A DNA stretch of 64,000 nt from Adhaeribacter aquaticus DSM 16391 (GTDB lineage Bacteria > Bacteroidota > Bacteroidia > Cytophagales > Hymenobacteraceae), in the NCBI RefSeq assembly GCF_000473365.1, contig NZ_AXBK01000002.1, positions 1 to 64,000 of the forward strand. Direction: 5' to 3'. The notes under the pieces were generated by a model. It was given only the letters and a program-made list of their open reading frames with translations, had not been told where the DNA came from and did no database searches. Below are positions 877-46,487 of this stretch, one piece after another. A program made the position numbers and the translations under genes. Position 1 is the first letter of the stretch. Every line of letters starts with the position of its first letter.

Positions 877-1767
877 TTATGATTTAACATCACTCGGGGC
901 TATTTTTTTAATGAAAGGGTGTAATTGCTGTTCCTTAAAAGTATTCGGGTAATTCTCTACTTCTTCAAAACCCAACTCAATATCCCGACCATCTTCCGGC
1001 AGATAAGCGGTGCGGAAAATATAATCCCAAATACTTAAACTAATGCCATAATTAGCGCCGTACCGGTGCGGCATGTGTTTGGCATGGTGCCAGATATGCA
1101 TTTGCGGGTTGTTAAAAAGATACCGGAACGGACCCAGCGGAAACCTGAAATTAGAATGGTTAAAGTGTCCGATAGCGGTGGCAAAAATATGCACCAGGAA
1201 AAAATCCTGAATGCCGAAACCAATCATGGCTAAGGGTATGTATTCTAAGGTCCGGTAAACTACTGTTTCCATCCAGTGAAACCGCAGGTGCGCCGCAAAA
1301 CCCATCTGCTGCACGGAATGATGGACTTTATGGAATTCCCACAGAAATTCTACCCGGTGTAAAAGCCGGTGTACATTCCATTGAATAAAATCGCGGACTA
1401 TAAATAAGGTAAGCAATTGCGCCCAGACTGGCCACGATTGAATTTCGAATGCTACAATATTCTTTAAGCCGAACAGGGACAGGAAATCATTAAAAGCCTG
1501 ATCCCCAATATTGGAAATGGCATTAAACCCTACCAGCGAAAACAGGAAAAAATTAAAGAACATGTAAAAGCCATCGAGCCAGAAATCCTGCCGGATTTTG
1601 GCCTGATGCTGCCGCCAGGGCATAAAAATTTCCAGCAGCCAAAAGAAAAGCGACAGACCTATTAACCAGTAAAAATAATTGCCCCAGCTGGGCTGTAAAA
1701 TTTCCCGGCCTAAATACCCCCCGTAATCAGTAAATGACCGGACGAATAGCTGCCAATACTTATCCAT
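877..1767 (-). CDS. sterol desaturase / fatty acid hydroxylase family protein
   Basis: A 296-residue integral membrane di-iron protein. The histidine clusters of the fatty-acid-hydroxylase superfamily are all present: HRLLH at 133-137, HKVHH at 146-150 and HIWHH at 224-228, with further His at 201, 204 and 230-234. Hydrophobic segments lie at about 31-50, 66-85 and 115-130. The family hydroxylates or desaturates lipids using O2; the substrate cannot be read from sequence. The stop of the upstream DsrE-like gene lies 14 bases from its start, so it belongs to the minus-strand sulfur operon, although its link to sulfur chemistry is unclear. Confidence 0.85.
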   Translation of the reverse strand: MDKYWQLFVRSFTDYGGYLGREILQPSWGNYFYWLIGLSLFFWLLEIFMPWRQHQAKIRQDFWLDGFYMFFNFFLFSLVGFNAISNIGDQAFNDFLSLFGLKNIVAFEIQSWPVWAQLLTLFIVRDFIQWNVHRLLHRVEFLWEFHKVHHSVQQMGFAAHLRFHWMETVVYRTLEYIPLAMIGFGIQDFFLVHIFATAIGHFNHSNFRFPLGPFRYLFNNPQMHIWHHAKHMPHRYGANYGISLSIWDYIFRTAYLPEDGRDIELGFEEVENYPNTFKEQQLHPFIKKIAPSDVKS

Positions 1768-9339: not shown

Positions 9340-9507
9340 ATAAGGAAATAAATTAAGAAAAAACCATCGGAAGGCCTGGAATACTAAAACAAGAATATTC
9401 CAATTGGTATAGGTGGGGCTGAAACTAAAACTTTAAAAGTGGCACTAAGTATAAATTAAATGTAAGCTACTTAAAATAGAGATTCGCCGTAACTAAAAAG
9501 AAAGATA

Positions 9508-34831: not shown

Positions 34832-37800
34832 CTAAAACTCCACCTTTGGCAATTCCTCCACAATATCTACGGTTTGCATACTTACATTAATAACACTCAA
34901 TAGCAATTCTAAAATATAGCGTGGGTTGCCAACTTCTTCGGACCAATCGTTGGGGTCGTTTTTAATGCCGCTGTCTTTATGGGTGGTTATTTGGTAGCGT
35001 TCCATTACCCATTCAATGGCACTTTTACCGTTTATTACATAGTCGTAGGCTTTGGCCGGAATATTCTCGATGCAAATTTTACTGTTGTAGATAATGCAAT
35101 CCTTTTGGCCTTTTTTAGGGAACCGCATTTTTTCTACTTTATAGAAACTGCTATCTGCTCCGGTTACGGTAACCCCATCATACGCCGGTACACTTTCGTA
35201 ATTAATATGTAAGTCAGCCAGGGCGCGGCCTGCTTTGCTGAATTTCCAGAAATCGCGCACATCTTCTACCAAAGGCAAACGTGGCAGCATTTTCGTTAAG
35301 TCGTTGGCAAACTGGGTGCGGTATGTGGGGCTGTGCAGGAAACCATAAACGTAATAGAAAATATCTTCTTTGCTTACGTTTTTCCCGTATTGCTTTTTGG
35401 CTCGCTCCAAGATAAAATCACTTAAACCATCACGGCGGATATACTCATTCCCACCGGTGCTATCAAATAAACCAGGACTTTGCTTTTGCCGCTCTTCGTA
35501 ATAATATAATGGGAAAACTTGACCATTAAATTGAAGTTGGACATCTGGGATAGTATCAGTTATTAAAACTGAGAAGTTTTTAGTATCACCTACACCCGAA
35601 ATACATAAGACATAATTTTTATGTTTTGGGGATGGAAAAAATTGTTGCGACTTACCAACCCTGTGAATAAGTTTATCGCCATTGTAAAGTATTTGCTTTA
35701 CAAATGGCCGATATAACCCATAAACAAGTTTATGTGGTTCAAAACTTGCCTCTCGGAATTTTTCTAGGTGGAATATTAAACTTGAAGTCCACTTTATTCT
35801 CTTCTCATCTTTTCCTATTGAAGAACTTAAATTATTGGCTATATTTTTTCCATTAATTGATTTAAAAAAAACAACTTGCTCATTATAATAATCAACCATT
35901 GATTTTACATTCCCCAAAAGCTTTTGTTTTGAGAAATTATAAACCCAAGTATCTCTATTTGATTGAAGACCTGGCGAGTTTAATATAAAAAAAGATTGCG
36001 AAGTTGATGTAAACTGCTTAATTGCTTCAATCGAAATAAATGTTTCAAATGCATCATTTCGCTCATTTACCCAATCACCGTGTTCATTTGGCTTAAGTTG
36101 TTTCCAAGGCATATCATTGCCTACTGACTTAAACTTCTTTACTATGGCAAGCTTTTCCTCACGATTTAAATAATCACCAATATCGTGGTAATATATTGTA
36201 GCTTTTTTACCTATGTTGGTTGGATTTTTAACTAATAAAGTAATGGAGATTGGAGTGCGTGAGCCACCGCCAAAAACGTTACCTGCCTCTTTTTGCCTTA
36301 ATTCCCCACTGGTTCTAGCATTTCCTCTTAAATTAAACACGTAAATAGCTGAAAACTCATTTTCTAAAGACTTTCGGAACCCATCGGCACTGTTGCCGGC
36401 CAGCCAAGCCCCATTAGAAACAAAACACACTATACCCCCATTTTTATCTAACCGGTCGGTGCTCCATCGGAAAGCTTTTATGTAAGAATCGTAAAGAGAG
36501 TTTTTATTGGTAGCATCGGTACCCCTGGCATAAGTAGCCGCAATACGAGCATCTAATGTAGGATAACTTTGGTTCTGCGCATTATCATTGGCTGATTTCT
36601 GTCCTACAGAATACGGTGGGTTGCCAATGATTACCTGCAAAGGCGCGTTCTTTTGCGACATAATCCGCTCAAAGTTCCTAGAAAAAGAAGCTTCTGTACC
36701 GTATTGCGTTGTTTTTGCTTCATCTAACTGAAATGTATCAGTCAATACTATTCCTTCAAAAGATTGATATTCCTGGTCTGCATCTAATTGGTCGTGGTAT
36801 GCGTTTTCGATATTTACAGCGGCTATATAATAGGCCAGTAGTACAATTTCATTGGCGTGGAGTTCAAACTTAAACTTGCGCTCTAAGTCTTTTTTATCAA
36901 TTAAGCCGCTCTGCAATAACCGGGTAATAAAGGTGCCGGTACCGGTAAATGGGTCGAGCACATGCACGTTTTCATCCGATATATTCCGGCCAAATTCCTT
37001 TTTCAGTACATCGTTTACCGAATGTATAATAAAATCCACAACCTCTACCGGTGTATAAACAATGCCCAGCCGTTCCACCATTTTTGGGAAGGCGGTTTTA
37101 AAGAACTTATCGTAGAGCTCAATAATAATGCGCTGCTTGCCTTCGGCGTTGTCAATATTACTGGCCCGCATTTTCACCGATTCGTAGAATTTCTGGAGCG
37201 TTTCGGTATCTTTTTCCAGGGCCCCGCCTTCCAGTAAATTGAGCATGGTTTGCATACTCACTGAAATCGGGTTATTACTGACAAAAGAATAACCTTCAAA
37301 TAATGCCTCAAAAACCGGTTTGGTAATAATATGCTGGCTCAGCATTTCCACGGCTTCGTGCTGAGTAATGCTAGGATTTATATTTTTCTTCAACCCATTC
37401 AAAAAATCCGTAAAAATTTCTTTGTGGGTTATATCTTCATTTATAAGCTTATTTATTCGTTCGGCTTGGCGCTCGGCAATTTCGGCTACGTTTTTCGCCC
37501 ATTGTTCCCAATAGCGCCTATCCCCTACTTTATGCACCATCCGGGCAAAAACCACGTTTTGCAATTGCTCAAATTGCAACGCTAACTGATTGGCCAGATT
37601 CTGATTGGTAGTATAACTTTCCTGGTCATCGGCGGCCATGGGTGAGCCATCCGAATGAAAAGCATATTCCGGACGCCCAACAATAATTTGTTCCGGTCGG
37701 TGTTTATTCAGTTCAATTTTATTTACCGTAGCGTTAAACCGGTCATCGTGGGCACGTAAGGCGTTTAATACCGTCCAGACTACTTTATAACGGTCATTAT

Positions 37801-39694
37801 CGTCCAGGGCTTTGTCGGCTTCTACATTGCTGGGCACTACTACCGGAATAATAATATAGCCGTATTTTTTACCCGGCGCTTTGCGCATTACCCGTCCCAC
37901 CGATTGCACAACATCTACTTGGGAGTTCCGGGCCGAAAGAAACATTACCGCATCCAAAGAAGGTACGTCTACCCCTTCGCTTAAACAGCGCACATTGGTC
38001 AGTACCCGGCATTCGTTATCCTCGGATTCAGCTTTTAACCAGCCTAATAATTCATCCCGTTGGGGTGCGGTCATAGTACCATCGATGTGCTTGGATGCAA
38101 CCGATACCATTTGTTCTTTTTTCTCCTCGGGTAGTGAATCTATATAAGAATCGGTAGCCGTCATGAAATTGGCTGTAATCTTTTTCGATTCGTCTATATT
38201 CCGGCAAAAAGCTAATGCACGGCGCATTGGCTCCGGGTCGCTCTCTTTCATAATACCGGCATCACCCAACATTTTTTTTGAAAGCGCATTTACGCAGCCA
38301 ATCAGTTTAGAAGCATCATCGGTATTTATTTCACTTTCTTCGCCGGCAATCATTTTCTGTACTGCCGGGGGTACATCCTGGTCGCTTAAGGTCAGAATAA
38401 GCACTTTATAATCGGTAAGTAAATCCCTGGAAACCGCTTCACCAAAACCAATCCGGTACATTTCATCGCCGTACAATTTTGCGTCGTCCATGGAGCACAA
38501 AACAGCATCGGCCTGGGCTGCTTTACTTTTAGTATCGTCGCTGTAAAGCCGGGGGGTGGCCGTCATGTACAACCGCTTTTTGGCTTGCAGAAAAGAATTA
38601 TCATGTACCTTGGTAAAAGCTGATTCATCTTCCCCGGCCAATGCTACGCCGGTAGTCCGGTGGGCTTCGTCGCAAATAATCAAATCAAATACCCCAAAAC
38701 CAATATCGCTCTGGAGCAACTGCTTTTGCGCCTGGGCAATAACTTCAATAGACTGGTAGGTAGAGAAAACCACAGTCATACCGGGTTTCTGGTTTTCTTT
38801 TATATGCCGGAACTGCTTTAGAATATCTTTAACATTCGTAGAAGCAGGTAAGGCTAAATCAACTACGCTAAAACTATCGGTATCCTCGTTCTTGGTTTTC
38901 TTCCGGGATATTTCCGGGTCCGAGCAAATACATATTGGGTTAATCGGCTCCAGCGCATCCGCAGACCACTCCCGCAGCGTTTGCCCTAACAAGGAAATAG
39001 AAGGAACCAAGAATAATATTAAACCCTGGCCATTGGTTTCATTTTCAGCAATGCGCAGCGCCGTAAAAGTCTTGCCTGTTCCGCAGGCCATGATAATCTT
39101 ACCCCGTTCATCTGTTTTAAAATGCTCATGGGTTTTGGTTAAGGCTTCTTTCTGGTGCCCGCGTAAGTTCTTTTTTGGAGTTCTGGCTGATTCTCCGTGA
39201 ATGCCTTGTTCTAATTTTTCCCAATCTACCGGGGCCTCGCGTAATTCATACAGGTTTAATCGGGTAACCGGTGGGTGCTGGTTCCGGATAGCTTCTTCCG
39301 CATTACTTCCCCATTTTTTACCGGTTGTATCAATCCAGAGCCGCTGCGTAAACCGGGTAGTTTGTAAATTCTCATTCTTGAACTCCCGGCTGGAAGTGGA
39401 AAGAAAAGAATCTACCGCAGGTTTATCTATAATGGTATTCTCCTGGTAGCATTTACATTGTACGGCCCAATAATCCCCGTCTATAGTTAGAGCCACTAAA
39501 TCAATACCGGTATCACTACCGCCCAAATCACTCTTTCCTGGAAATTCATTCCAAAGCCAGACTTTTTTAAAGAGGTAAGCATATTTGGGGTCTGTTTTAA
39601 GGTAAGCCTGCATCAGGCGCTCAAAGCGCTCACCTTTATCACGTTCAGAAAAGGCTGTTTTTCGGTACTTATCTAATATTTTCTGAAAACTCAT
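34832..39694 (-). CDS. single-chain restriction-modification enzyme (Type ISP / LlaBIII-like)
   Basis: A 1620-residue multi-domain enzyme. In order: a PD-(D/E)XK Mrr-like nuclease (about 50-90, DTGIDLVALTIDGDYWAVQCKC), an SF2 helicase with ACGTGKT near 205, CDEAHRT near 341, ATPRLY and VQSVGRVMR, a helical coupler, an N6-adenine methyltransferase with DPFTGTGTF near 916 and IIGNPPYS near 1025, and a C-terminal target-recognition region. Motifs are intact. Type ISP enzymes modify one strand and cut after two converging translocating enzymes meet. The Argonaute gene starts 76 bases downstream. Confidence 0.88.
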   Translation of the reverse strand: MSFQKILDKYRKTAFSERDKGERFERLMQAYLKTDPKYAYLFKKVWLWNEFPGKSDLGGSDTGIDLVALTIDGDYWAVQCKCYQENTIIDKPAVDSFLSTSSREFKNENLQTTRFTQRLWIDTTGKKWGSNAEEAIRNQHPPVTRLNLYELREAPVDWEKLEQGIHGESARTPKKNLRGHQKEALTKTHEHFKTDERGKIIMACGTGKTFTALRIAENETNGQGLILFLVPSISLLGQTLREWSADALEPINPICICSDPEISRKKTKNEDTDSFSVVDLALPASTNVKDILKQFRHIKENQKPGMTVVFSTYQSIEVIAQAQKQLLQSDIGFGVFDLIICDEAHRTTGVALAGEDESAFTKVHDNSFLQAKKRLYMTATPRLYSDDTKSKAAQADAVLCSMDDAKLYGDEMYRIGFGEAVSRDLLTDYKVLILTLSDQDVPPAVQKMIAGEESEINTDDASKLIGCVNALSKKMLGDAGIMKESDPEPMRRALAFCRNIDESKKITANFMTATDSYIDSLPEEKKEQMVSVASKHIDGTMTAPQRDELLGWLKAESEDNECRVLTNVRCLSEGVDVPSLDAVMFLSARNSQVDVVQSVGRVMRKAPGKKYGYIIIPVVVPSNVEADKALDDNDRYKVVWTVLNALRAHDDRFNATVNKIELNKHRPEQIIVGRPEYAFHSDGSPMAADDQESYTTNQNLANQLALQFEQLQNVVFARMVHKVGDRRYWEQWAKNVAEIAERQAERINKLINEDITHKEIFTDFLNGLKKNINPSITQHEAVEMLSQHIITKPVFEALFEGYSFVSNNPISVSMQTMLNLLEGGALEKDTETLQKFYESVKMRASNIDNAEGKQRIIIELYDKFFKTAFPKMVERLGIVYTPVEVVDFIIHSVNDVLKKEFGRNISDENVHVLDPFTGTGTFITRLLQSGLIDKKDLERKFKFELHANEIVLLAYYIAAVNIENAYHDQLDADQEYQSFEGIVLTDTFQLDEAKTTQYGTEASFSRNFERIMSQKNAPLQVIIGNPPYSVGQKSANDNAQNQSYPTLDARIAATYARGTDATNKNSLYDSYIKAFRWSTDRLDKNGGIVCFVSNGAWLAGNSADGFRKSLENEFSAIYVFNLRGNARTSGELRQKEAGNVFGGGSRTPISITLLVKNPTNIGKKATIYYHDIGDYLNREEKLAIVKKFKSVGNDMPWKQLKPNEHGDWVNERNDAFETFISIEAIKQFTSTSQSFFILNSPGLQSNRDTWVYNFSKQKLLGNVKSMVDYYNEQVVFFKSINGKNIANNLSSSIGKDEKRIKWTSSLIFHLEKFREASFEPHKLVYGLYRPFVKQILYNGDKLIHRVGKSQQFFPSPKHKNYVLCISGVGDTKNFSVLITDTIPDVQLQFNGQVFPLYYYEERQKQSPGLFDSTGGNEYIRRDGLSDFILERAKKQYGKNVSKEDIFYYVYGFLHSPTYRTQFANDLTKMLPRLPLVEDVRDFWKFSKAGRALADLHINYESVPAYDGVTVTGADSSFYKVEKMRFPKKGQKDCIIYNSKICIENIPAKAYDYVINGKSAIEWVMERYQITTHKDSGIKNDPNDWSEEVGNPRYILELLLSVINVSMQTVDIVEELPKVEF

Positions 39695-42106: not shown

Positions 42107-43702
42107 ATGGAAGAGGAAAAGGACGAAGGTAATGTATATGCCTATAATATTGAGGGCAAAATTATTCATATATCAGAAGCTGGCAGCGGAAAGCTTGGAT
42201 ATTTTTGCTTAGGTTGTGAAAGAGAAATGCAAGCTGTACAGTATAAGATTGTAAATCATCAGTCATACTTCCGGCATGACCCTAAAGGTGTTGAGCCAAA
42301 TAAAAAATGTACTTTTTCTGATGAAACCCATCGGCATAATCTAGCCAAAGCAATTCTCCAGCAAATAAAAAAAATTAAGGTTCCCCCGGTTTATAAATAT
42401 CCTCCTAGGGGCCAAGATGGGTTAGCTACTTTACTTATTGAGGATAGATACATTGAAGCCCATACAGTTGAGAATGAAACATGCTTTTTTGAGGATGAAA
42501 ACGGAGAATTAAAGTGGGGCAAGCAAAAAGATGTTGGAGATAGATTTTTACTAATTCAGCCTGATGTTACTTTCTTCGATAAAGATTATAAACCCATTCT
42601 ATTTATCGAATTAGTTGCTACACACAAAGTTTCGCTGGAAAAACAAGTAAAAATTCGCCGGTTAGGCATTGATACCATATTCGTTAACATACCGAAAGAT
42701 TCTCCGGAACAAATAGAAAAAACTTTTTATAAATCAGAAAAAACTAAATGGGTTTTTAATAATGAGCAAGAACGCGCTGACTACTTACCAGTTTCCTACC
42801 CAGATGCAATGGGAGTACCACCAATTGATGAACTCCAAAGAAAGCTTTTTGAAGAATCTTTCGAGTGTAGAGCAGCGCAAATTAGAAGCTTTATACGCGG
42901 AATTAACAAGTGCCTGGCATCGCAACCATACCGAGATATTGAATCAGGATTTAGAGATGCAATATCAAGAGTTGAGGGAAATACAGCAGATAATCGAGAG
43001 CGACTGCTCAGACTTCAAGAAAAACACAGAGCAGAAATTAGCAGCAAGTATTCAGAAAAAGGAGCAGAAATTGCAAATGAAAAAGAGCAAATTCGCTTTG
43101 AAAAAGAAGAATTTCGAGCAAACGCAATTGCAACAGAATCTGATTTTAGAGAAAAAACAGCAAGACTTGATAAAGAAACAACAGACCTTGAAGGAGAAAC
43201 AAGAATTCTTGGGCTTAGAATCGAGGAAGAAATTACAGCTCTTGGACGAAGCAACGGAGAAAGTGAACGAGAAGCAGCAATTGTTGACCGAGACATTGAG
43301 AGAGCAAGATATAAAATCATACAATTACAAGCAGACACAGACGAGTTACCAGAACGATTTGAAGAACTTACAAAATCTGCTAGACAGCGATTTGAAGAAG
43401 ATTCAAACGGAGAAAGAGCAGAAATTAGCGGAATACAAGAAGCTGGAGAGCAATTACCAGCAAGATTTGAACAAGAAAGAGGAGAGCTTGAAGAAAGATT
43501 TATTAACTTACGAGAACAATCTGATTCTGCAGTTAAAGCAAGAATTACTATTGGAGATACCGAATTGTCCCGAAGAATTAAAAAAATACTTGATTCAGGA
43601 AGAACACTTAGAAATTTCGAAACGGGAATCATTTCTTTTAAAAGAAACAAACGAGCGCTTGAATGCTTTAACCAAGGGACTTTCAAAAATTGGATTAGAT
43701 AA
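42107..43702 (+). CDS. CoiA-like zinc-finger/nuclease-fold protein with long coiled coil
   Basis: A 531-residue protein. An N-terminal Cys/His segment (YFCLGCEREM...HQSYFRH) resembles CoiA-type zinc fingers, then a PD-(D/E)XK-like core (LLIQPDVTFFDKDYKPILFIELVATHKVS) that could be a nuclease, then from about 240 a long E/R/A-rich coiled coil ending in RNFETGIISFKRNKRALECFNQGTFKNW. The C-terminal 313 codons share their DNA with a second open frame (42762-43769). Leu is written CTT there, and TTA appears only before C, which keeps the other frame open; in the first 218 codons TTA before A or G is common. Confidence 0.7.
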   Translation: MEEEKDEGNVYAYNIEGKIIHISEAGSGKLGYFCLGCEREMQAVQYKIVNHQSYFRHDPKGVEPNKKCTFSDETHRHNLAKAILQQIKKIKVPPVYKYPPRGQDGLATLLIEDRYIEAHTVENETCFFEDENGELKWGKQKDVGDRFLLIQPDVTFFDKDYKPILFIELVATHKVSLEKQVKIRRLGIDTIFVNIPKDSPEQIEKTFYKSEKTKWVFNNEQERADYLPVSYPDAMGVPPIDELQRKLFEESFECRAAQIRSFIRGINKCLASQPYRDIESGFRDAISRVEGNTADNRERLLRLQEKHRAEISSKYSEKGAEIANEKEQIRFEKEEFRANAIATESDFREKTARLDKETTDLEGETRILGLRIEEEITALGRSNGESEREAAIVDRDIERARYKIIQLQADTDELPERFEELTKSARQRFEEDSNGERAEISGIQEAGEQLPARFEQERGELEERFINLREQSDSAVKARITIGDTELSRRIKKILDSGRTLRNFETGIISFKRNKRALECFNQGTFKNWIR

Positions 43703-43769
43703 AAGAGGGATTGATGCGGCCAAATTCATGGAATTAATGGAGAATCATTCTTCTGTAGTAAATAGTTAA
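42762..43769 (+). CDS. overlapping coiled-coil protein in an alternative frame
   Basis: A 335-residue open frame, shifted by one base relative to the CoiA-like gene and on the same strand. It reads as a Q/K/L/E-rich coiled coil (EIQQIIESDCSDFKKNTEQK, repeated LKEKQEFLGLE-type heptads) and ends beyond the other gene in a globular-looking tail, LNALTKGLSKIGLDKRGIDAAKF. Codons ending in T are not followed by AA, AG or GA in the overlap, as needed to keep the other frame open. It could be expressed from its own ATG or by frameshift from the upstream gene. The next gene starts 16 bases after its stop. Confidence 0.5.
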   Translation: MSKNALTTYQFPTQMQWEYHQLMNSKESFLKNLSSVEQRKLEALYAELTSAWHRNHTEILNQDLEMQYQELREIQQIIESDCSDFKKNTEQKLAASIQKKEQKLQMKKSKFALKKKNFEQTQLQQNLILEKKQQDLIKKQQTLKEKQEFLGLESRKKLQLLDEATEKVNEKQQLLTETLREQDIKSYNYKQTQTSYQNDLKNLQNLLDSDLKKIQTEKEQKLAEYKKLESNYQQDLNKKEESLKKDLLTYENNLILQLKQELLLEIPNCPEELKKYLIQEEHLEISKRESFLLKETNERLNALTKGLSKIGLDKRGIDAAKFMELMENHSSVVNS

Positions 43770-43785
43770 ATATCAATGAAAAAAA

Positions 43786-44148
43786 ATGATTAAAGTAAAA
43801 CACCCGGACGAAAAGTGCAATATCCAGCAGGAAGCATTTTTGGCAAACTGCCCGGAAAACGAACGCCGGTTTCATGAGCTTTTATTTACCAATGGCAATA
43901 TTTCTTACCGGTACCATATGGAAGCCAAAGAATTTTCTCCGACGGAAAAAGATTTTGTAGAATGGCTGGAAGGACTACCAGAAAATATTCGCAAGGCTAT
44001 GGAGGAAAAGGGATTTCAGGAATGTAAAAGCATTCTTTCTTTTACCCGGTATGTAAACGAAAAGAATGATATTGGTATGGATGAATATATCCGGCAACAC
44101 ATGGACCCGGAAGATTTTGCTGAATACCAACAAATTTTAACAAAATAA
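43786..44148 (+). CDS. hypothetical protein, 120 residues
   Basis: An acidic, helical soluble protein: MIKVKHPDEKCNIQQEAFLANCPENERRF, then a EFSPTEKDFVEWLEGLPENIRKAMEEKGF segment. It follows the overlapping gene pair by 16 bases and is probably in the same transcript. Proteins like this occur on Bacteroidota mobile elements, but I know of no function. Convergent with a short minus-strand gene that starts at 44327. Confidence 0.6.
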   Translation: MIKVKHPDEKCNIQQEAFLANCPENERRFHELLFTNGNISYRYHMEAKEFSPTEKDFVEWLEGLPENIRKAMEEKGFQECKSILSFTRYVNEKNDIGMDEYIRQHMDPEDFAEYQQILTK

Positions 44149-45149: not shown

Positions 45150-46487
45150 TTAAAGCTCCTGCCCCTGTTGGCTTCGGCTAACGGATCGGCCGCTTTGAAT
45201 GGCTTTATTCTTTTCCGGAATTTCCAATATTTTATTAGCACTCTTTAAATCATCTAATGCCTGGCCTGCCTTAAAACCGGAAATAGAACTCGCATTATTT
45301 AGAGCTTCCTCTACTAATAGCTTATTTTTACCGCCTACATACGGCACCTTTTCTACAAACCTGGCTACTTCCTGCAACCCCTCCCCTACCGCTGGTTTTC
45401 CATGAGTTTTCAATTCCCTACTTACAGCGGTTGCCGCCTGTATAAATAGCGCTTTCGCCTCTGTATGATTTTTAGGTTGCTGCGCCTGGGAAGAATTCGT
45501 ATTGGATATTATTTTGGAAATTGGAATTTCCTTTCCGGCCGCTATAAATTTTACCTGGTCTAAGGCTTTGGTTAACCGCTCGGCATCTTTATAAAGATAA
45601 TGCTCCGGTTGGGTTCCTTCTAAAATAGAAGTACTGATAGCGCGTAAACTCTTATCGTGATTTTTGTATTTTTGCGGCTCTTCTACAATATGTTTTACCT
45701 GCTGTTTCACTACACTGTCCCAGCGGTCGGCTATCCGGGTACCGGTTACCTCCAGCTCACGCAAAGCTTCTATCCTGCACAACGCCGGCGAAGGTTCCGG
45801 GGTTTTTAAATTCACCTGCTGCCCTTTTTCCGTTTCAACTCCGGGCAATGGTATGGTAATCTGGCTTAGAAATACTTTTAGAGGCTCTATATTTTTACTC
45901 CCTTCCTGGGGTGGATGTGGTTTTACAATTGCAAAATTACGGGCTTCATTATATTTAGCCGGGTCGGCCTGGTTAAAGTCAATATTATAACCGGCTTCTT
46001 TACCTAACTGAGTAAAAGCGGCTTGTAAGGTCCTACCGTTACCTTCTCTAAAAGCATGCACATGATTATATTGGTCTAAATAATACGCTGCCCGTTCCAC
46101 AAACTTTTCCGTCGCTAACCCTTTCAGGTTATTTTCTTTTTGCAATTGCAAACTAATAGCATCTAATCGGACATCTATTTCTTTAAAGGGAGCAAATTTC
46201 ATTTCCTGCAACACCCCATCCACCTGGGTATCTTTCACCCCCTGGAACCCTCCCCTATTGGCACGGGTTTCCCCAGCCCAGGGATATACTTCCTGAAATA
46301 GAAATTTATGAAACTGCTTAACGTGTTCTGCATTAAAAATTCCGGGTATACCTTCCCCAATTTTTAAAATAGTAGCTTTAACTTGAACAACGTCGTTTTC
46401 AAATTTAGCTAGCTCAGTTTTATTATGGGTATTTTTATGATTTATTAAAACCTCGCTATTTGTGTAGCAAAATCCATCCTGTTCCAT
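45150..46487 (-). CDS. fic: Fic/DOC family AMP-transferase toxin
   Basis: A 445-residue protein with a Fic domain in the first 200 residues. The catalytic loop reads HAFREGNGRT (His near 147), a match to HPFxxGNGR, and the flap region YPWAGETRANRGGFQG lies upstream. Fic proteins with this motif AMPylate targets such as gyrase or topoisomerase IV. The helical C-terminal half (about 215-445) is not a recognisable BID secretion signal. A VbhA-like partner is encoded immediately upstream (17 bases), and the coupling protein and relaxase follow upstream, as in the VbhA/VbhT arrangement on conjugative plasmids. Confidence 0.87.
   Translation of the reverse strand: MEQDGFCYTNSEVLINHKNTHNKTELAKFENDVVQVKATILKIGEGIPGIFNAEHVKQFHKFLFQEVYPWAGETRANRGGFQGVKDTQVDGVLQEMKFAPFKEIDVRLDAISLQLQKENNLKGLATEKFVERAAYYLDQYNHVHAFREGNGRTLQAAFTQLGKEAGYNIDFNQADPAKYNEARNFAIVKPHPPQEGSKNIEPLKVFLSQITIPLPGVETEKGQQVNLKTPEPSPALCRIEALRELEVTGTRIADRWDSVVKQQVKHIVEEPQKYKNHDKSLRAISTSILEGTQPEHYLYKDAERLTKALDQVKFIAAGKEIPISKIISNTNSSQAQQPKNHTEAKALFIQAATAVSRELKTHGKPAVGEGLQEVARFVEKVPYVGGKNKLLVEEALNNASSISGFKAGQALDDLKSANKILEIPEKNKAIQSGRSVSRSQQGQEL

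Follow-up and report, generated by a model that had tools for sequence, protein, structure and literature searches.

The window analysed here, the first 64,000 bases (1-64000) of a 118,498-base contig of Adhaeribacter aquaticus (genome of 5.17 Mb in four contigs), contains two long reading frames that lie over one another on the same strand (Table 1). The first, ORF A, encodes a CoiA-like protein; the second, ORF B, opens inside A, runs along its entire coiled-coil half and continues a little way past its end. A sequence-only reading of the window had proposed this arrangement, and the positions of the two frames, their offset and their overlap were all confirmed, as were an ATG belonging to B and a tail that A does not share. 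The overlap is also crossed by an open frame on the reverse strand, which appears to be a by-product because no reverse frame stays open over the whole overlap in any of the 37 loci aligned below.

Table 1. Coordinates of the A/B locus, its neighbours and selected relatives. Positions refer to the window unless another locus is named.
Feature	Position	Strand	Description
ORF A	42107-43702	+	CoiA-like protein, 531 aa
A, N-terminal half	about residues 1-218		putative zinc ribbon and nuclease-like part
A, coil half	residues 219-531		inside the overlap
ORF B	42762-43769	+	coiled-coil protein, 335 aa, +1 frame relative to A, own ATG
B tail past the end of A			67 nt
Dual-coding overlap of A and B	42762-43702	+	313 codons, about 940 bases
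B start site	42749-42764	+	invariant A codon TGG (Trp215), then the ATG of B
Fast-changing or exchanged middle of both coils	43032-43660	+	approximate limits, transferred from the L039-L042 comparison
Reverse open frame	43015-43686	-	223 aa, apparent by-product
Type IIG restriction enzyme-methyltransferase	34832-39694	-	2.4 kb upstream of the pair
Downstream small protein	43786-44148	+	120 aa, no family, just 3' of B
Candidate defence protein	45150-46487	-	first ~186 residues match family PDC-S04
L010 indel region	near 9395-9460		frames swapped
L028 indel region	near 1490-1560		frames swapped
L058, shortened pair	L058:1306-2182		both frames open
L011, annotated frame	L011:8548-9594		frame of B (PK28_RS17135, WP_156126522.1)
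L001, remote CoiA-like protein	G000:C2:52813-53136		~610 aa, same genome

Composition does not account for the open frame of B

Codon choice in the overlap bears the mark of the second frame, and the sequence-only reading had said so in several particulars, all of which held. In the overlap every TTA of A precedes C (5/5) and CTT is the main Leu codon of A (12 occurrences); upstream of it, 5 of the 7 TTA codons of A stand before A or G. More generally, none of the 15 NTA or NTG codons of A in the overlap creates a stop in the frame of B, versus 11 of 22 upstream. The avoidance is mutual: of the codons of B ending in T, none of the 44 in the overlap precedes AA, AG or GA, against 2 of 8 in the tail of B.

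The same reading had cautioned that purine-rich, T-poor DNA could partly produce such a pattern. We therefore rely on permutations in which the protein and its codon make-up in the overlap are held fixed and only synonymous codons are shuffled (2000 permutations); because codon make-up is preserved, they answer the caveat. With the A protein of the window fixed, B acquires 7.3 stops on average and is open in 0 of 2000 permutations; with B fixed, A acquires 13.4 stops and is likewise open in 0 of 2000. Codon randomisation had been proposed as a check that would count against dual coding if such open frames proved common. Run in 14 loci with A fixed, it gives a mean of 4-10 stops in B and an open fraction of 0 to 0.0015 per locus, so that an open frame by chance is rare; with B fixed, 6-17 stops arise in A, which is never open in the loci tested. 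The +2 frame carries 15-55 stops in the overlap across the 37 loci. Together with the absence of an open reverse frame, these results show that composition does not account for the open frame of B.

Every intact relative of A found carries B

To find relatives of A, single-sequence and profile searches were run on genomes of the phylum, the order and five families, and on plasmids, phages, viral contigs and genome contigs. All the intact full-length relatives found encode B in the +1 frame: 39 distinct loci in six families, made up of 37 aligned loci (of which L011 and L044 are identical) plus L101, L104 and L105. CoiA-like homologues that break the second frame with stops would have refuted the sequence-only reading; there are 0 among these 39, and no intact full-length A without B. 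The relatives with genus names belong to Fibrella, Spirosoma, Hymenobacter and Jiulongibacter. In the first 14 relatives, protein identity to the pair of the window is 20-39% for A and 13-31% for B. Trees built from the upstream part of A and from B have most of their supported clades in common.

A profile of B run over 385 genomes of the class did not find B away from A, its only two extra matches being weak and coil-like, and the existence of a standalone B was thus rejected. Shorter or remote CoiA-like proteins (e.g. L019, L030, L031, L060, L062 and L064) have neither the full coil nor B.

A few copies are damaged or incomplete. L010 and L028 each carry one frame-swapping indel, next to an A7 run, through which the start of A continues into the end of B; sequencing error, decay and phase variation are each possible and cannot be told apart. 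L058 has an internal deletion that harms both proteins, and L029 is a fragment cut by a contig edge. In the shortened L058, A retains both ends and has lost its middle, B retains its C-terminal part only, and both frames are open.

B starts at a fixed place inside A

In 31 of 37 loci B opens with an ATG or GTG placed 13 nt downstream of the first base of the invariant Trp codon of A, and five further loci have an ATG one codon earlier, so that the start of B is the same to within one codon in 36 of the 37 aligned loci. L004 alone lacks a start at this place and may begin slightly downstream. By comparison, the open frame of B upstream of its start varies from 4 codons (L003) to about 50, and there is no conserved A7 slip site. 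Because the start is fixed, the upstream frame variable and the A7 site not conserved, we consider that B is likely made by internal initiation rather than by frameshifting; this is inferred from the start codon, in the absence of expression data. No ribosome-binding motif has been shown for this start, and RNA structure around it is slightly below expectation and not marked (mean z +0.38).

Both frames are under purifying selection

In close pairs, nucleotide changes upstream of the overlap fall mostly at the third codon position, and in the overlap they are spread more evenly; in the example of L013 and L008 they number 36, 25 and 126 at positions 1, 2 and 3 upstream, and 57, 30 and 59 in the overlap. 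Rates by site class were then obtained by simple site counting over seven independent pairs, pooled, and compared by Fisher tests on rounded counts. Upstream, the rates per site are 0.094 (nonsynonymous) and 0.535 (synonymous). Within the overlap, they are 0.149 where a change alters both proteins (NN), 0.200 where it alters only B (SN), 0.241 where it alters only A (NS) and 0.538 where it alters neither (SS, a small class of 47 sites). Sites synonymous for A evolve more slowly in the overlap (SN) than upstream (P=1e-72). Selection on A is supported by NN being lower than SN (P=3e-5) and selection on B by NN being lower than NS (P=3e-12), and the pooled dN/dS-like ratios are below 1 in each frame when the other frame is allowed for; taken pair by pair, the ratio for A is not always significant. 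Since the SS rate equals the upstream synonymous rate, it is the two proteins, rather than the DNA itself, that are constrained.

A second line of evidence comes from permuting synonymous codons in pairs of loci. When both A proteins are fixed, the observed alignment score of B lies 5-11 standard deviations above the permuted scores, and when both B proteins are fixed, that of A lies 7-20 above. Thus neither frame's likeness is a by-product of the other's.

What the computation shows is that each frame is open beyond chance, is conserved and evolves under purifying selection, and that B has a fixed start. The selection on both frames that had been read from the window is therefore supported by homologues, permutations and substitution patterns alike. 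That A and B are both real genes under purifying selection is very likely, on computed evidence that no RNA, ribosome-footprint or peptide data yet accompany.

Nature of the two proteins

The CoiA-like label given in the sequence-only reading is right in kind but weak for the A of the window itself, which reaches no Pfam family, whereas several of its relatives (L004, L009, L012, L015 and L018) pass the cut-off of CoiA_N (PF25164). Residues C34, C37, H57, C68, E168 and W215 are invariant in 14 aligned relatives and D153 is found in 13 of them. The first four suggest a zinc ribbon, inferred without binding data, and E168 with D153 suggest a nuclease-like core of unproven catalytic activity; some relatives have another residue in place of Lys174 (Ser in L039, Ala in L011). 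The CoiA_nuc profile (PF06054) has no match in the A of the window and, in its own genome, matches L001 only. L001 is a remote CoiA-like protein with DUF7830, DUF6035 and CoiA_nuc domains; it has a coil of its own without a second long frame on the + strand.

AF2 models, made from two-row alignments only, predict two long helices in the coil of A (residues 273-381 and 387-496) at low confidence, and are unusable over its first half (pLDDT under 50). B is predicted to be all helical, with pLDDT ~80 over much of residues 11-150 and 200-260. No family name could be given to B, Pfam, PHROGs and PDB sequence searches having returned scattered coil matches only.

Two coils share one seam

The hydrophobic residues of the coil of A recur with a period of 3.57-3.58 residues in most loci, often with the same period in B, and where the signal is clear the seam of B lies within about half a residue of that of A (mean offset -0.16). 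The seam is weak in the Hymenobacter group (L011, L044-L046 and L050). The two seams are in phase because of the genetic code: NTT followed by a purine encodes Ile, Leu, Val or Phe in A and, as TTR, Leu at that codon index in B. The seam of B is thus partly borrowed from A, and the two are only partly independent. A single pattern in the DNA, repeating about every 3.57 codons, would then serve both helices, and it is possible that this common period and phase explain how so long an overlap is feasible at all.

The two coils also change together, as a comparison of L039 with L042 shows. Over roughly the first 270 nt of the overlap they differ at 2-8% of nucleotides; the difference rises to 22-50% through the coil and falls to 13% at the end of the overlap. 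The N-terminal parts are 94% identical and the coils only 47% (A) and 44% (B). L042 is placed differently in the trees of the upstream part of A and of B. A donor of the L042 coil was looked for and not found, so coil exchange and fast divergence cannot be distinguished, but in either case both coils were altered. A single shared segment would keep two coils matched through exchange or divergence.

Genomic setting

The pair is patchy and accessory in its distribution, with copies on plasmids and on contigs of all sizes, and no conserved neighbour or operon partner emerged from 38 regions compared. The type IIG restriction enzyme-methyltransferase upstream of the pair in the window is matched over its whole length by PADLOC (PDLC03597), and in the Fibrella copy L007 the pair is adjoined by AbiL-like genes and a type III methyltransferase. 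A itself gave only scattered weak matches to known defence families in PADLOC. A viral origin was rejected, phage records and viral contigs containing no match to A.

Other genes recur nearby. Eight of the 38 regions (L008, L079, L081, L085, L089, L092, L093 and L099) have UmuC-like polymerase genes no more than nine genes away from the pair, and UmuD-like genes are near it in 7 of 38, often alongside the UmuC-like ones. Around the closest copies, L084, L085 and L087, there are relatives of the candidate defence protein of the window and of the proteins neighbouring it. The small protein just downstream of B also has relatives near these three copies, and farther upstream in L075 and L076.

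Proposed function

The whole is best explained by two proteins made from one DNA stretch, as had been proposed, and we regard this as likely. A would be a CoiA-like protein with a zinc ribbon, a nuclease-like core and a long C-terminal coil, and B a separate coiled-coil protein starting inside A just past the invariant Trp codon and ending shortly after A. The leading functional inference is that the two form an obligate two-subunit unit, B pairing with the coil of A and the CoiA-like domain acting on nucleic acid; the case for it is evenly balanced in the absence of data on A-B contact. If the coils do bind each other, the overlap would explain why the matched partners never separate.

The role of such a unit is less certain still. 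A selection for phage-defence systems in E. coli returned, among others, a CoiA-domain protein (PMC9519451); it has a CoiA-type domain in common with A, a likeness known by domain name only, and no overlapping partner appears in the relevant sections of that paper. This protein, the restriction enzyme and AbiL neighbours and the plasmid copies make a role in defence or in competition between elements plausible. That the unit is such a module on plasmids and accessory DNA nonetheless rests on context alone, without phage-growth data, and on balance we lean slightly against it. A bolder reading remains possible, in which A and B are a widespread mobile unit of two partner proteins with matching coils encoded by the same DNA, facing residues sharing nucleotides. 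If true, exchange or drift of the segment would alter both partners together and preserve their match.

Alternative explanations

The alternative that survives best is a toxin-antitoxin pair, in which A would be a harmful nuclease restrained by B from the same message and the overlap would prevent their separation. The absence of an intact A without B, the mobile and patchy distribution of the pair and the broken loci in which both proteins are harmed all speak for it. However, B has no known antitoxin domain, the catalytic residues of A are unsettled and there are no toxicity data; we consider this explanation unlikely.

A second alternative holds that ribosomes or polymerase shift by +1 and fuse the N-terminal half of A to B, no separate B being made. 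L010 and L028, where one indel next to an A7 run joins the start of A to the end of B, could be taken in its favour. It is very unlikely: (i), the start codon of B is fixed in 36 of 37 loci, (ii), only 4 codons of the B frame are open upstream of it in L003 and, (iii), no slip site is conserved. Programmed frameshifting or slippage was rejected for lack of a conserved A7 run.

Two further alternatives are all but excluded. In one, A is the only gene, and the frame of B stays open incidentally because coil codons rich in purines favour it. Such codons do favour open +1 frames, the reverse frames are fairly poor in stops, and in a few loci up to 0.15% of the permutations of A keep B open. However, about 39 loci have an open B that can be aligned, its start codon is fixed, its likeness exceeds what A forces (z=5-11), and the rate of A-synonymous changes is 0.20 in the overlap against 0.535 upstream, with no such drop for doubly synonymous ones (0.538). 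In the other, B and the N-terminal half of A are functional and the coil of A is an incidental run-on beyond its former end. B indeed has the better modelled helices and, in GC-rich genomes, a codon usage closer to the host's than that of the overlapping part of A. Against this, the overlapping part of A is conserved given B (z=7-20), its coil has a strong seam, NN is lower than SN (P=3e-5), and A has a conserved C-terminal motif of its own near SG-x-[YFW]-K-x-W. A run-on of A over an older B is thus rejected for present-day selection, on the A-given-B likeness and the site classes; the order of birth is undecided. Codon usage, in which A is closer to the host in 15 of 35 loci, does not decide which frame is older.

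Relation to known overlapping genes

Overlapping genes as such are known, but the well-studied long bacterial ones are antisense in the literature that we searched. The olg1 and olg2 genes of Pseudomonas aeruginosa are reportedly long overlapping genes (Kreitmeier et al. 2022), and pop of E. coli is a 603-bp frame antisense to ompA (PMC7103648). A and B resemble these in that two long frames occupy the same DNA, one of them unannotated, with selection or expression claimed for the second; unlike them, A and B share strand and message and are conserved over six families at low protein identity. A survey of same-strand overlaps (PMC2542354) counted those of at least 7 bases as long and explained their frequencies without selection, and for same-strand candidates elsewhere selection has been denied (PMC7457138). 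The A/B overlap has the orientation of the phase-1 overlaps of that survey, the commoner phase for long ones, but extends over 313 codons selected in both frames. Viral overprinted genes (reviewed in PMC8227390) are likewise densely dual-coding, both of their frames being selected, whereas A and B are cellular, on plasmids and chromosomes. Compared with the CoiA family (CoiA_N PF25164, CoiA_nuc PF06054), A has an inferred N-terminal zinc ribbon and a D...E nuclease-like motif in common with it, but PF06054 misses the A of the window, and none of the other CoiA-like proteins found (mostly 216-404 aa; L001, ~610 aa) has the long coil that contains B.

Double coding of this length under selection is very unusual for a cellular gene pair, and what is new here is a long same-strand overlap of coil over coil kept in about 39 loci. 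No earlier report of the pair was found in the open-licence literature, a scope that could have left out one published behind a subscription. Long overlapping genes remain a contested matter in cells and are left out when genomes are annotated. A and B add a same-strand example, supported by about 39 loci, a fixed start, randomisation in both directions and an SS class evolving at the upstream synonymous rate, so that the claim can be checked by anyone. It is tempting to suggest as a general rule that coil over coil is easy to encode twice, which would indicate where to seek more pairs.

Annotators have entered only one gene of this pair, and which one it is varies between records. The public annotation of the Hymenobacter sp. 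DG25B plasmid (L011) has the frame of B and omits A, whereas the other plasmid records list A without B; automatic annotation settles on a single frame of the pair.
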